A stretch of 56,865 nt of DNA. Source: an uncultured Bacilli bacterium (GTDB lineage Bacteria > Bacillota_I > Bacilli_A > RFN20 > CAG-288). The first letter of the stretch is position 1. Each line of letters starts with the position of its first letter. The DNA is taken from assembly GCA_944371605.1 (NCBI GenBank), contig CALVXU010000009.1:1-56865 (forward strand). Reading direction: 5' to 3'. Under the pieces are notes generated by a model that saw nothing but the letters and a program-made list of their open reading frames with translations, had not been told where the DNA came from and did no database searches. The position numbers and the translations under genes are program-made. Positions 10,517-50,998 of this stretch are shown here, one piece after another.

Positions 10517-12277
10517 ATGTTAACTAATCAAGATAAATTAAACATTTATGGTCTATTTGCAGAAAACTTTAAAAAGAATTCAACCATCCCATTGAATCAA
10601 GTCGAAATTTATTTAAAAAATCACGGACTTGATCCAAAAGAATTCGGTTATAAAAATATGTTAGCTCTCTTGAGAGACTTAGATGCATTTTTGACAATTA
10701 AAAAAGTTGATGCAAAAGATCATCCTACTATCATCTTTCATGATTTCGTGGACAACAAACAAATAAAACATGATAAAGTTTCGAGTAAAAGTTTTGATGC
10801 CAAAGAGAAGAAAAAAATATTTAATTTATTAATTTCTTACTTGCCACCTAACCAAGAATTTCCAATGGCATTAGTTTCAAAGTATTTATTAGACCATAAA
10901 ATCGATTATAAGAATTATGGTTTTAAGCAGATGAAAAATCTTTTATCGAGTCTCAGCGAATATCTTTCACTTAGAGAAGTGACTCAAAATGGCACTAAAC
11001 AACTGATGATAAAGATAAAACCTAAAAAAGCTAATGTACAGCATGGGAATGTCGCCAAAAATGAAAAACATATCCTAAAACAGGAAAGCGATATAGCTTT
11101 CTTTATTCCACAAAAGATTATCGCTTCCTTAAAAGAAATGTGCTCGTTAGGACTTGATGATGAAAACTTAAAAAAACTTATAGTAAAAGATTATCAAACA
11201 GCGCTCAAACAAAAGACCATAAAATCCAAAGACGACAATATCATCTTTTCATTATCCTTTAAAACGAGATCAGGAAAGAAGCTGATAGGAGCCATCAAAC
11301 ACGCTGATAATAATTGTGCTTATAAATATTTTTTAAACTATGTCGGAGATGAAGAGATAAAAGCGAGAGACGCTTTGAAAGAGTTTATTCAATTTCCGGA
11401 TTATGAAAAAAGCATCAAAGAATTAGCATCACTAGCAAAAAAAGAGAAATGGTGTTATCGTCACTCAAAAGACGAGTTTATAATTCTTAAAATATATCTG
11501 CAATATACTTTTGCAACAATTTGGAAACAAAAGCTATTTATATTTAACAATGACACTGGTTTCGGTGCTTTTAACACTGGTTTAGTCACTGATGATTATC
11601 AAGTTATCTATGGTATCGTTCAACGAAATAATCTTAAAGATTCTACAGTGCCATATTTATTTGAAGGATTTGCAACAGCTGGATCCCAAGGCTTAGGAAA
11701 AACTCTTGTGGAAAGTTTTAACCCTCTTCCTCATAAAGCCAAATATTTAACAGACATTAAAGATGCTTTCTTTGATCCAAATTCACTTGTCTATACAGAT
11801 TTCGAGCATATCATCAATGATAATCTAGATCGTTTTCCAATAGATTTTTTAAAGACAATATTTGTTCCATTCAAATCCGAATATCAATTATTATCTAAAG
11901 TCATCAAAGAAAATAACGAATTCAAGCGGCAGTTCTTATATAAAAAGATTTCTGAGTCGCTGAAGAAAAACGATTTATTATACAACCTTTTACATTCAGC
12001 ATTATATACCACTATTGAAAGATCTAAACGAATGGTTGAGCATGATTATCGTCTTGCACTTCCATCTTTCTTTCCGACTAGAAATGTCATGTCTATGATG
12101 TTGCCTCTAATTTTTGATACTAAAAAAGGAGTGCAAGCTGTCCTTTTAGTCGAGCATAATAATATCGGCAATTATCAAGGTCAAACTTTATTAACCCTTA
12201 AACAATGCTATGTCAATGCCCGTCTGATATCACCATTAGATCATTCCTTTTTAAATCCTGATGAGATCGAAGACTGA
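10517..12277 (+). CDS. OST-HTH/LOTUS-like plus DUF3825-like protein
   Basis: A 586-aa soluble protein. Two similar N-terminal modules (about residues 5-75 and 98-168) share a pattern: a hydrophobic helix, 'P..LV..YL..H.iD...yGfK.M..LL..L..yL.l..V'. This resembles the winged-helix OST-HTH (LOTUS) RNA-binding domain. Residues ~295-560 resemble the DUF3825 family, with YLQYTFATIWKQKL, AFNTGLVTDDYQVIYGIVQ (FNTGL 352-356) and HIINDNLDRFP (431-441). In published domain surveys, DUF3825 is found with OST-HTH in bacteria. The middle (175-295) is basic and unassigned. An RNA-binding or RNA-regulatory role is inference. The gene is coupled to a GNAT gene by TGATG. The assignment rests on pattern resemblance only. 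Confidence 0.6.
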   Translation: MLTNQDKLNIYGLFAENFKKNSTIPLNQVEIYLKNHGLDPKEFGYKNMLALLRDLDAFLTIKKVDAKDHPTIIFHDFVDNKQIKHDKVSSKSFDAKEKKKIFNLLISYLPPNQEFPMALVSKYLLDHKIDYKNYGFKQMKNLLSSLSEYLSLREVTQNGTKQLMIKIKPKKANVQHGNVAKNEKHILKQESDIAFFIPQKIIASLKEMCSLGLDDENLKKLIVKDYQTALKQKTIKSKDDNIIFSLSFKTRSGKKLIGAIKHADNNCAYKYFLNYVGDEEIKARDALKEFIQFPDYEKSIKELASLAKKEKWCYRHSKDEFIILKIYLQYTFATIWKQKLFIFNNDTGFGAFNTGLVTDDYQVIYGIVQRNNLKDSTVPYLFEGFATAGSQGLGKTLVESFNPLPHKAKYLTDIKDAFFDPNSLVYTDFEHIINDNLDRFPIDFLKTIFVPFKSEYQLLSKVIKENNEFKRQFLYKKISESLKKNDLLYNLLHSALYTTIERSKRMVEHDYRLALPSFFPTRNVMSMMLPLIFDTKKGVQAVLLVEHNNIGNYQGQTLLTLKQCYVNARLISPLDHSFLNPDEIED

Positions 12278-46905: not shown

Positions 46906-47655
46906 TCAATAGATAATTTGTGCTTTATAAGAGATATCTTTATTATCTTTATATCCGATAAATTGTTCACATCGTTCATTTAGTGAATAGCTATAAGTGG
47001 TTAAAATCTCATCTAACAAACATTCCTTCTCAAAATTGATTTCAACTGATTTAAATCTCTCTTTATGTGAAAATCCATCTAATAATTTGGCATAAACAGC
47101 ATTATTGAGATGATGATTCACATCAATGTCAGCTTTAGTGACCTTATATGAATCATTTTTTAAAGTTGAAATCGATGGCAATATGATTTGTAATGATGAT
47201 AAATCCTCAGGAAAAACCCTTTTGATATTTTTCATCTCTTCTCTATATTGTTCACAAATATTCTGCAATTCTGTCATCAAAGTGATCTTTCTGCGAACAC
47301 TATCTAACATCACCCAAAGTGAAGACAAAGCAGCTACCTGTTCATTTTTACTATCATAGATAATCGCATCACGATATACATGTATCTTATTTGGATAAAA
47401 GGGAAAAGTGATCAATGAATATGTTTCCCCTTTATGAAACTCTTTATAAAATTGAATCCTCATTCGACAAATGACTATCAATAAATTATGCGCTTCTAAA
47501 AAACTATTGCCAAAACCTAATAATTCCGCGTGAGGAATCGCGGCTTTCTGGAAATTATCAAATATTTCAAAAAGAGATGGGTTCGAGTGTTCATCTAGTG
47601 TCTGAATTGAAAAATCTCTTTTATAGAATAGTTTACTGCTCAAATTCATTTCCAT
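46906..47655 (-). CDS. Acyl-ACP thioesterase
   Basis: Releases fatty acids from acyl-carrier protein. 249 aa with two hot-dog units: the first contains YKRDFSIQTLDEHSNPSLFEIFDNFQKAA and the ETYSLITFPFYPNKIHVYRDAII block, the second the conserved DIDVNHHLNNAVYAKLL with the catalytic Asn/His pattern. This is the bacterial FatA/FatB-like family of Firmicutes. The ATG at 47655 is 9 nt after GAGG and overlaps the HAD gene by 10 nt. No fatty acid synthesis gene is adjacent. Confidence 0.88.
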   Translation of the reverse strand: MEMNLSSKLFYKRDFSIQTLDEHSNPSLFEIFDNFQKAAIPHAELLGFGNSFLEAHNLLIVICRMRIQFYKEFHKGETYSLITFPFYPNKIHVYRDAIIYDSKNEQVAALSSLWVMLDSVRRKITLMTELQNICEQYREEMKNIKRVFPEDLSSLQIILPSISTLKNDSYKVTKADIDVNHHLNNAVYAKLLDGFSHKERFKSVEINFEKECLLDEILTTYSYSLNERCEQFIGYKDNKDISYKAQIIY

Positions 47656-48383
47656 AATCTGCCGCCTCTATATAATTCAATGACTTCTTTAAATGACGAA
47701 ACATCAACAAAACTAATCTTATTAAAATCATTGAGTTTAGAATAATCAGAAGAATTCTTATGTGAAGCATTCAACCAAATAACATTATTGAATCCAGAAA
47801 AAAACGCTCCGTTTATATCGGCATAAAAAGAGTCACCGATATAAATAGCGTTTTCTTTTTTAATTCCAGCTTTATTCAGTCCAGCATCAAAAAACAATTT
47901 ATTTGGTTTCTTCACACCGATTTCTGCAGACCCCAATAAAAATTGTAATCCATTATTCGGCAATAATTTATTGACTAATTTGAAAGTATCATCACTATCG
48001 TAAATAGTATTTGATAAAACAGCATGATAGATTCCATCTCGATTCAAAAGATCTAGAAACAAATCAGCATATGGAATAGCAGTAGGACTTAAGCTACTCA
48101 AAATCTCATGAACGCACTCTTTGATTGTGCAATCTAAGTTTAATTTGAAATTTATGACTATTAAATTTAAGAACTGCTCAGCTTGAATTTCATATAAGCT
48201 TCCACTTTGAAGATAGGATTTTAAAAATGAATTGGCAAACAAATTGATATCATTCCAGTCAACTTGTTTAGAATTTAAAGAATGCCTTCTCAAACAATCT
48301 ATATTCCATGTTGCAGTTTTCATCTTAAAACTTATCAATGTATCCCAACAATCGAAGAAAACAGCTTTTTTGTTCTCATTCAT
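47646..48383 (-). CDS. HAD-superfamily hydrolase
   Basis: 245 aa. Motif I is FFDCWDTL (nucleophile Asp and the +2 residue replaced by W in D-x-W/D-T; the second Asp follows the family's DxxDT variant), motif II a Ser/Thr in HAVLSNT, motif III Lys in GVKKPNKLFF, motif IV GDSFYADINGA. It is a cytoplasmic phosphatase-like enzyme with an alpha-helical C1 cap; the substrate is unknown. The start has GAGG 5 nt upstream. It is first gene of the HAD-thioesterase-comFA-comF block. Confidence 0.83.
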   Translation of the reverse strand: MNENKKAVFFDCWDTLISFKMKTATWNIDCLRRHSLNSKQVDWNDINLFANSFLKSYLQSGSLYEIQAEQFLNLIVINFKLNLDCTIKECVHEILSSLSPTAIPYADLFLDLLNRDGIYHAVLSNTIYDSDDTFKLVNKLLPNNGLQFLLGSAEIGVKKPNKLFFDAGLNKAGIKKENAIYIGDSFYADINGAFFSGFNNVIWLNASHKNSSDYSKLNDFNKISFVDVSSFKEVIELYRGGRLWK

Positions 48384-48698: not shown

Positions 48699-50900
48699 AT
48701 GAGCAAACAAACAAATGTAGTTGCTAAAAGAAAGCAAGAAAAGTTAAAGCCACGTGCTATCAGTCTTGTTTTCACAATCCTTTTAGCCATCCTATTGTTA
48801 GTCGGTGTCGCTGCTGCTGTTATTATTTTTACACCTTTATTCAACTTTATAATGGAAGCATGCGGACAAGAAGTCGGTTCAGCCGTTTTAGAAAATGGTG
48901 CATTTACTACTTATGTACATGAACATCTTGTAACTGCTTATTCATTACCATGGCCATTTGTCATCGGAAGTGAAACATCATTATTCTTTAGCGCGATTGT
49001 CTATACTTTTATTTATTACATGGTCTTTGTTTTAGGACTAGCACTATGCTACTTCCCTTTCATGGCTATGGGTCATGTGAGATTAAAGAGAAAAGCGAAT
49101 AAAACGCATAGATATGTTTTAGAAATTATCAACTTCTTGATGATGTTTGTCTTATTCGGTAGCTTAATCATTTTTGCTTTCCAAAAAGAATTAGGTGATA
49201 TCGTCGGTTGGATTGATAACAGTTTTAGTTATTTATCTAATAATATTTTTGCTGATGGCAAACCTCTCCACATTTTATCTTTCTTCGGCAATCAGCCAGG
49301 AGCTAGTTTCCTTGCTGCTATTTTCTGGGTTTTCGTCGTATTCTTATTTATTTATATCATTCTTCATATCATTTCTCTCGCTGGTGGAAATCCAAAGAAA
49401 AATGCAGCTTCTTCAACCGCTTCCGATCAAGCTGAACTAGCTGGTAACGAAGATGAAAACATCATCCCTGGTGCTGTTCCAGCTGTTGCCGCTGTTCAAA
49501 TTAGTACTCCAGTCTTTATGGCTAGACCAGATGAAATTGAAAAAGCGACTGAGACTGCTGCTAAAATAGAGCAAGAAGAAAAGATTGCTAAAGATGAAGA
49601 ATTAAAAGAGAAAGTCAACAAAATTCTCAGTCGTAAAGAGCTAAAAAATATTCAGCCTACTGCTAGAGAAGTAGCTATCTTGAATGCCTTAGATAGATTT
49701 AAAAACACACCTTGCAACGCTCTACCTGGTATCTATGAATCTGACGTCGACATGATCTTAAACTCTTTAGAACCTAAGACTTTGACTTCTGTTGGTCACA
49801 CTCCTGATGAAGAAAAAGATGCTGCACGTGCTAAGCTCATCGCTGAAAGCTTAGATCCTGTTACACAGCCTGTGAGCGTCTTACCTGGTATCAGTGATAG
49901 CGATGAAATGCCTTGGAAAGAGACTGAAACTATTGAAGAGCCTGTTGAAAAAAAGGAAGAAACTACAATAGTTCAAGAAGAAACTCCAAAGGCAGAAGAA
50001 AAACTCGAAGACATCACAGTCGAGGCACAACCTGAGCCGATCACTGAACCTATTGTGACTGAAATTGTTCACGAAGAGTTGAAAAAGGAGATCGCTGAAA
50101 AATCTACAAAAGAAGAAGTTGCTGAAGAAATTGAAGATAAAGCCACTGTTATCGCTGTCAATGCTTTGAAAGATGACGAAAGAGTCAGCCCGATAATCGA
50201 ACAAGAACCTGTTGTAGATGAAGGCGACAAAGCTTCACGCTATGAAATGAGACAAACCGTCACCAATAATACTCATCGTAATGTGCCAGCATCTAAACCT
50301 GCAACTCCTAGAGTTGTTTATGTCCCTGTCAAGCCACTCGTAAAAGAAGAACCTATTGATTTAGGCGAAACTCAAACGATTGCTGATGAAACTCCTGAAA
50401 TCAAACCTGTCGAACCTCAAAAACGTGTCATCACTCCTATCGCTCCGATTGAAAGAAAAGATGATCAAAAAGTTGAAGAAAGACCTGATGAAAAGAAATT
50501 AGCTGCAATCTCCGGTCCTTTACATGCAATCAACAAACGCGCAAGACCTGAAATCAAGCCTGTTGAAGCTAAGAAAGTCAAATTTGACTTGAAGCAATAT
50601 CGTGTTAAGACTTATGAAGGCGAACTCACTGCTACAGAAGCTTTCTCCAAGGGTGTCACCAAAGTTCAACCTGTTGTCAATCCCGTGTATATCAATCAAG
50701 GAACTAACACCGATTGGCTGTCTAAAAAGAAAGAAGAAGAAAATAGGAAAGCTGGTTACACTAATCTCACCCAAGGCAAACTTGTCAAACCTACTAGACC
50801 ATTATCTGGACCTAAACAGCCTCAAAAGATCACTTCTATCAGAGATTTAGCTAAGAGAAATAGACAAGCTAAAGCTGAAGAAGAAAAAGAAAACGAATAA
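48699..50900 (+). CDS. Unrecognised four-TM protein with long charged cytoplasmic tail
   Basis: 733 aa. TM segments are at about residues 22-45, 95-121, 139-161 and 204-228. The positive N-terminus and the KRKANK loop (129-134) place both ends in the cytoplasm. Residues 229-733 form a low-complexity tail rich in Glu, Lys, Pro, Ala and Val, probably disordered, with a coiled-coil-like stretch near 275-310. A short repeat LPGI-x-x-SD occurs twice (around 342 and 390). The C-terminus is basic (SIRDLAKRNRQAK). No catalytic motif is visible. It is monocistronic between a promoter and a strong terminator. A scaffold role at the membrane or division site is a guess only. Confidence 0.7.
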   Translation: MSKQTNVVAKRKQEKLKPRAISLVFTILLAILLLVGVAAAVIIFTPLFNFIMEACGQEVGSAVLENGAFTTYVHEHLVTAYSLPWPFVIGSETSLFFSAIVYTFIYYMVFVLGLALCYFPFMAMGHVRLKRKANKTHRYVLEIINFLMMFVLFGSLIIFAFQKELGDIVGWIDNSFSYLSNNIFADGKPLHILSFFGNQPGASFLAAIFWVFVVFLFIYIILHIISLAGGNPKKNAASSTASDQAELAGNEDENIIPGAVPAVAAVQISTPVFMARPDEIEKATETAAKIEQEEKIAKDEELKEKVNKILSRKELKNIQPTAREVAILNALDRFKNTPCNALPGIYESDVDMILNSLEPKTLTSVGHTPDEEKDAARAKLIAESLDPVTQPVSVLPGISDSDEMPWKETETIEEPVEKKEETTIVQEETPKAEEKLEDITVEAQPEPITEPIVTEIVHEELKKEIAEKSTKEEVAEEIEDKATVIAVNALKDDERVSPIIEQEPVVDEGDKASRYEMRQTVTNNTHRNVPASKPATPRVVYVPVKPLVKEEPIDLGETQTIADETPEIKPVEPQKRVITPIAPIERKDDQKVEERPDEKKLAAISGPLHAINKRARPEIKPVEAKKVKFDLKQYRVKTYEGELTATEAFSKGVTKVQPVVNPVYINQGTNTDWLSKKKEEENRKAGYTNLTQGKLVKPTRPLSGPKQPQKITSIRDLAKRNRQAKAEEEKENE

Positions 50901-50916
50901 ACTCAGTCTTTATTTA

Positions 50917-50941
50917 GGGGGATGAATTAATCCCCCTTTTT
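50917..50941 (+). terminator. Rho-independent terminator of the four-TM protein gene
   Basis: GGGGGAT (50917-50923) pairs perfectly with ATCCCCC (50930-50936) around a 6-nt loop, followed by TTTTT. It is 16 bp after the stop codon and is the strongest terminator in the window. Confidence 0.92.
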
Positions 50942-50955
50942 CTGTGTAATATATC

Positions 50956-50985: not shown

Positions 50986-50998
50986 TTTCAAGCTAAAT

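Follow-up and report, generated by a model that had tools for sequence, protein, structure and literature searches.

A membrane protein family with a long peptide-bearing tail in Bacilli of the order RFN20: a possible tether or scaffold

What might a large membrane protein do when most of its length is a charged tail and its sequence recalls no known family? The question is raised by a gene in the window, the whole 56,865-nucleotide stretch of contig CALVXU010000009.1 (assembly GCA_944371605.1) from an uncultured Bacilli bacterium of the order RFN20. On the forward strand an open reading frame with an ATG start (48699-50900) encodes 733 residues. From these letters alone, the original prediction described an orphan protein with four transmembrane (TM) helices, a probably disordered tail and repeated motifs that looked like docking sites, and considered a division or polar scaffold possible. 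Comparison with related genomes, structure modelling and tests of selection allow these proposals to be weighed.

A four-helix membrane unit with a long tail

The gene upstream is divergent and a tRNA-Pro lies downstream at 50998, so the 733-residue gene is probably monocistronic. The terminator it was said to own is present as an 8-bp stem followed by T-rich sequence (Table 1), in a region (50901-50950) that folds with -16.3 kcal/mol (z -2.86). Two further observations concern the window at large. Positions 10517-12277 on the forward strand encode a protein with an OST-HTH/LOTUS domain and DUF3825. AGG is rare in 16 window ORFs (29/8826 codons, one of them in the 733-residue gene); a published study reports that one clade of the order RFN20 reads this codon as Met (PMC8629427), and nothing in the window requires an alternative genetic code.

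Table 1. Features of the locus (share, mean majority-residue share among 14 aligned genus members)
Feature	Position	Strand	Evidence
Divergent neighbour, HAD-type hydrolase, first in a HAD - thioesterase - ComFA - ComFC - GdpP series	47646..48383	-	Pfam; HAD adjoins the family gene in 13/15 genus genomes
Gene: four TM helices and 506-aa cytoplasmic tail	48699..50900	+	ORF; homologues in 16/59 related genomes including its own; dN/dS 0.11
Four-TM unit, residues 20-227, both termini predicted cytoplasmic	48756..49379	+	Hydropathy, AlphaFold2, K+R distribution
First conserved block, residues 320-355, with LPGIYESDVD	49656..49763	+	Share 0.53 (residues 316-355); predicted short helices 322-330, 350-357
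Second conserved block, residues 391-406, with LPGISDSDEMPW	49869..49916	+	LP[GA][IVL][DNS] with PW/PF in 13/17 ORFs; share 0.60 (residues 391-410)
Acidic E/K/P-rich variable middle tail, residues 411-600	49929..50498	+	28 KR, 49 DE; share 0.41 (residues 411-575)
C core, residues 605-668, with GxLTxxEAFxxGxTKV	50511..50702	+	Share 0.71; A2 profile containing the C core detects G017 and genus g22; predicted extended, short helices
SIRDL helix, residues 711-722	50829..50864	+	Share 0.72; motif in 15/17 ORFs; predicted helix 714-732
Intrinsic terminator	50916..50937	+	8-bp stem, T-rich tail

The compact membrane unit of the original prediction is borne out by four hydrophobic helices within residues 20-227, for which AlphaFold2 gives block-wise pLDDT values of about 63-87. 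Lysine and arginine number 7 in the N-terminus, 0 in the first external loop, 6 in the middle loop and 2 in the second external loop, a distribution that supports a predicted N-in/C-in topology. The external loops have some 35-50 residues. Among 14 aligned genus members no charged residue within the membrane is conspicuous for its conservation; the charged or polar columns in which 8/14 or more agree lie mostly at the ends and in the loops.

The tail comprises residues 228-733 (506 aa; E 14%, K 11%, P 8%) and changes character along its length, being acidic in residues 228-600 (49 KR vs 83 DE) and basic in residues 601-733 (28 KR vs 16 DE). Most of it has an AlphaFold2 pLDDT below 50. Short helices are predicted at residues 283-310, 322-330, 350-357, 369-384, 645-650, 672-684 and 714-732, and the rest is predicted to be disordered. 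Composition and model thus agree with the proposed tail of about 500 Glu/Lys/Pro-rich, probably disordered residues with a basic end.

Are there docking motifs in this tail? The sequence LPGI-x-x-SD, proposed as one motif used twice, is literally present (residues 342 and 395), but each site lies in a conserved block of its own (LPG[IL]YE..VD..I..LEP and LPGID.....PW), and the 'SD' of the second is not conserved. A single repeated docking motif was therefore rejected. What stands of the proposal is that, in the homologue search, the surroundings of LPGI and of SIRDLAKRN are conserved tail segments, and that they look like docking peptides. The motif that really is repeated is [IV]-[KTAQ]-P-[IVL], with 107 occurrences in 36 tails vs 12.0 expected from shuffles; the excess is descriptive, as the pattern was picked after viewing the sequences and the tails are related. 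GxLTxxEAF occurs in 16/17 ORFs, a set in which, as in Table 1, two ORFs of one genome (G011) are counted separately. Modelled alone, the C core gave a pTM of 0.21 and three short helices in no compact fold, as would be expected for docking peptides.

Known families offered little to compare. Pfam returned 0 families for the full protein, its N-terminal part or its C-terminal part, and only weak matches below cut-off for distant members; the SepF domain (PF04472) and the FtsK motor domain (PF01580) had no Pfam match in the protein, and the Pfam scans reported no EAGR box. The best NCBIfam match had an E-value of 0.022 and 15 bits against a cut-off of 165. Searches of PDB sequences gave a best E-value of 1.5 for the full protein and nothing for the C-terminal profile. 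Foldseek found no match to the four-TM domain at E<=0.001, and the best VIA-align match was a designed bundle (Z 6.2, rmsd 4.6, 134 aligned), with values of the order that helical bundles usually give. Titles and abstract openings in the literature searched contained no description of this family. The protein thus fits no recognised family, as had been expected, and Pfam, NCBIfam, PDB sequences and fold libraries gave no clear match to a transporter or enzyme family.

A family spread over three families of the order

The label of orphan did not survive: homologues are present in all 14 other sampled genomes of the genus, and more remote members occur in three of the order's families. Of 59 related genomes searched with the full protein, 16 gave a match, namely the window's own and all others of its genus (g1, 15/15 in total) and G017, which belongs to the same family but to a different genus. 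When only genus sequences were used to build a profile of the last 125 residues (A2), 20/279 order genomes matched: to the same 15 it added G017 (E 8.7e-32) and, in family f3, four genomes of g22 (E 1e-7 to 9e-7). With the G017 and g22 sequences added (A3), 5/395 class genomes matched at E<=0.01, these being the window's own, two from g22, and G300 (E 0.009) and G330 (E 0.005), which were marginal and were dropped. A profile of the N-terminal part built from f3 only (A4) matched 37/273 genomes at E<=0.01, among them 16 f3 genomes (E<=2.1e-39), G017 (E 9.2e-9) and three genomes of genus g47 in family f5 (E 4.0e-8 to 2.1e-5). The 17 weak matches of these 37 (E 3.5e-4 to 0.0095) were dropped before counting; four of them, read by eye (G096, G097, G080, G236), were two ABC transporters, a glycosyltransferase and a nuclease. 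G175 (E 0.046) was dropped as weak as well.

Fourteen A4-matched proteins that were read have the same layout in 422-784 aa (one open at a contig end), and simple hydropathy calls four TM helices in 10 of them, three in one, five in two and six in one. The layout is also specific. The window, taken together with loci L031-L045 and L131-L168, supplied 250 ORFs no shorter than 400 aa; 16 of these combined 3-6 TM calls with a tail of more than 250 aa that is at least 30% E+K+P, and all are family members.

Homology between the genus and f3 is carried by the C core, through which A2 finds g22, and by the G017 protein, whose C-terminus matches the genus and whose N-terminus matches f3. Compared directly, the N-terminal profiles of the two groups match weakly (hhalign probability 9.6%, E 0.0034), and A4 does not detect the N-terminal part of genus members, its sole match in the genus (G008, E 0.006) lying elsewhere.

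Outside the genus, gene order supports orthology. With names assigned by eye from sequence, the family gene follows oppF in G017, G031 (g14) and G057 (g26), follows feoB in g22 and two g14 genomes, and precedes ung in g22, two g14 and three g47 genomes. Within the genus it is divergent from a HAD - thioesterase pair in 13/15 genomes, with ComFA - ComFC - GdpP behind where the contig reaches; the gene that it directly faces in G011 and G014 is ComFA. A single contig of G017 has comFA, opp and the family gene within ~20 kb, an arrangement that may explain the two genomic settings. A functional link to Opp was considered and rejected: opp is a neighbour in g4, g14 and part of the remaining f3 genomes, and the genus has the gene without opp.

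Some loci are irregular. An ORF of G011 (L045:9524-15277) holds two four-TM units, and its tail is interrupted by two in-frame stops upstream of the C core; the gene may be disrupted or misassembled. By eye, the tails at L202 and L205 (g26) contain a repeated segment DPFAxYR...GYGAKKVPSFKE. In G017, an OppD-like ATPase ORF of 993 aa (L044:14949-17930) apparently carries a large insertion.

Conservation at short and long range

Against its nearest relative, which is 79% identical, the window protein has an overall dN/dS of 0.11. The ratio is lowest in the TM domain (0.046), followed by the C core (0.078) and the mid tail (0.157). These low ratios show that the gene is real and under selection. 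Across the genus the picture differs. In the alignment of 14 members, in which G011 is not included and G017 was left out, the majority-residue share averages 0.36-0.45 over the TM helices and the external loops of the membrane unit and 0.49 over its cytoplasmic loop. It reaches 0.53 in the LEP/LPGI block, and the best-conserved parts are the second LPG block (0.60), the C core (0.71) and the SIRDL helix (0.72). Judged from substitutions, then, selection acts on the whole protein at short range, and across the time depth of the genus the tail peptides alone retain their sequence. The TM domain being the most constrained part at short range, it may have more than an anchoring role.

From a transporter, channel or enzyme one would expect the opposite pattern. 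A poorly conserved anchor joined to well-conserved tail peptides fits a protein that docks its partners through those peptides better than it fits a transporter or enzyme. The four-TM and tail layout is itself kept in three families of the order despite the divergence of the sequences.

Candidate roles and partners

On these grounds there is roughly an even chance that the 733-residue protein is a membrane-anchored flexible tether or scaffold. The four-TM unit would mainly serve to hold it in the membrane, its two ends facing the cytoplasm, and the tail would be a flexible arm presenting several short docking peptides to cytoplasmic partners. Candidates for such peptides are the LEP/LPGI block, the LPGI...PW block, the GxLTxxEAFxxGxTKV core, the SIRDL helix and the [IV]xP[IVL] repeats. 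The computed features are topology, predicted disorder, purifying selection and a concentration of conservation in the tail peptides; that these peptides bind partners is what we infer from them. The computational tools used found no partner protein for the family. A membrane-bound filament system, MreB or FtsZ-FtsA, would be our guess, and a division or polar role is possible.

Could the protein be a small channel or transporter instead, or the sensor subunit of one, with a tail that is merely regulatory? Four TM helices with external loops of that length, the strong short-range constraint on the TM domain and the opp or feoB transporter genes that adjoin the family gene in g4, g14 and g22 genomes would suit such a protein, but across the genus few parts are less conserved than the TM domain, the genus lacks the opp and feoB neighbours, and neither a transporter-family match nor a clear fold match was obtained, so this reading is unlikely. 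Poorer still are the prospects of a split FtsK, in which the four-TM domain and linker would be encoded apart from the motor. In outline FtsK has four TM helices and then a long disordered linker; the FtsK proteins of these genomes share that plan, and the N-terminal part is what the window protein resembles. The window protein has no motor domain, however, the motor gene is present in 15/15 genomes tested, complete FtsK frames (G004, G041, G031) carry their own TM helices, and TM-domain profiles compared with three FtsK N-termini gave an hhalign probability of ~1%. A split FtsK was accordingly rejected and is very improbable.

The envelope genes of the carriers bear on a further proposal. All 15 genus genomes are without MraY (0/15) and SepF (0/15), in keeping with the earlier remark that the lineage is poor in envelope genes, and FtsZ is present in 15/15, in G002 only as a fragment at the end of a contig. 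Loss of FtsA, initially considered because most of the frames in the genus had ~330 aa, was discarded: ftsZ is preceded by a divergent ftsA, and the frames of ~330 aa turned out to be MreB, which was verified by NCBIfam for the window's genome (G000) and G017 only and is inferred elsewhere from the size of the PF14450 match. The genus thus seems to lack MraY and SepF yet to keep FtsZ, a divergent FtsA and MreB; in draft genomes 61-100% complete a single absence means little, and the pattern over 15 genomes means more. In G018 FtsZ is encoded by an ORF of 1190 aa (L149:9756-13328), whose very long extension is apparently a coiled coil.

Such a gene set would suit a dedicated Z-ring anchor that replaces SepF, its C-terminal peptides holding FtsZ or FtsA at the membrane. 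The FtsA C-termini at ftsA-ftsZ loci L131-L150 and L101-L130 show no obvious amphipathic helix in a short moment scan and by eye, a point in favour of such an anchor, but FtsA ends of non-carriers lack a clear helix too. Nor does the family track SepF, found in 7/26 carriers and 14/33 non-carriers among 59 genomes (p 0.28): g22 has SepF, FtsA and the family, and in g2, without SepF, no member was detected. Replacement of SepF is hence not supported and is rated a doubtful prospect. ZipA, with one TM helix and a folded C-terminal domain, SepF and FtsA would share with the working idea of a tether the task of keeping a filament membrane-bound by way of a flexible arm; unlike ZipA, the window protein has four TM helices and no predicted folded end domain, and it has no sequence relation to SepF. 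As to the FtsA ends themselves, many outside the genus finish in acidic residues, and several within it finish near FGR-like residues.

MreB shows a closer association with the family. A match of MreB size occurs in 25/26 carriers vs 9/33 non-carriers (59 genomes; Fisher p 3.6e-8), an association confounded by relatedness, as the carriers fall in two families with few independent events and most matches are called by size only. In family f5, 11/11 genomes in the set are without an MreB-sized match, and the family does occur in three f5 genomes beyond the set, those of g47. MraY shows no association with family presence (p 1.0, 59 genomes). Because the family is also present in walled genera, g22 and g14, where MraY is found, it is not tied to wall loss.

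A likeness in role may be found in Mycoplasma, a related wall-less lineage. One study (PMC9262362) describes acidic and proline-rich domains in the terminal-organelle proteins MG200 and MG386, and HMW3/MG317 as an anchor of the organelle core to the membrane. These proteins are cytoskeleton-linked and have acidic, proline-rich tails; the window protein differs in its four TM helices, and the likeness is one of composition and role only.

A bolder version of the tether or scaffold reading, and a long shot, is that the family is an order-specific cortical linker that ties MreB, or FtsA-FtsZ, to the bare membrane in wall-less Bacilli. The anchor would be free to evolve and the short tail peptides would hold the filament. 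If true, spectrin- or ERM-type membrane-cytoskeleton links would have a counterpart in bacteria. The question it touches is how cells without peptidoglycan maintain their shape and divide, and how MreB and FtsZ are attached to the membrane without their usual partners; for this the family offers a concrete, conserved candidate with defined peptides. It also represents a kind of protein that homology search easily misses, with an anchor that drifts past recognition and a core of ~60 residues that changes little, although no compact fold is predicted for it.
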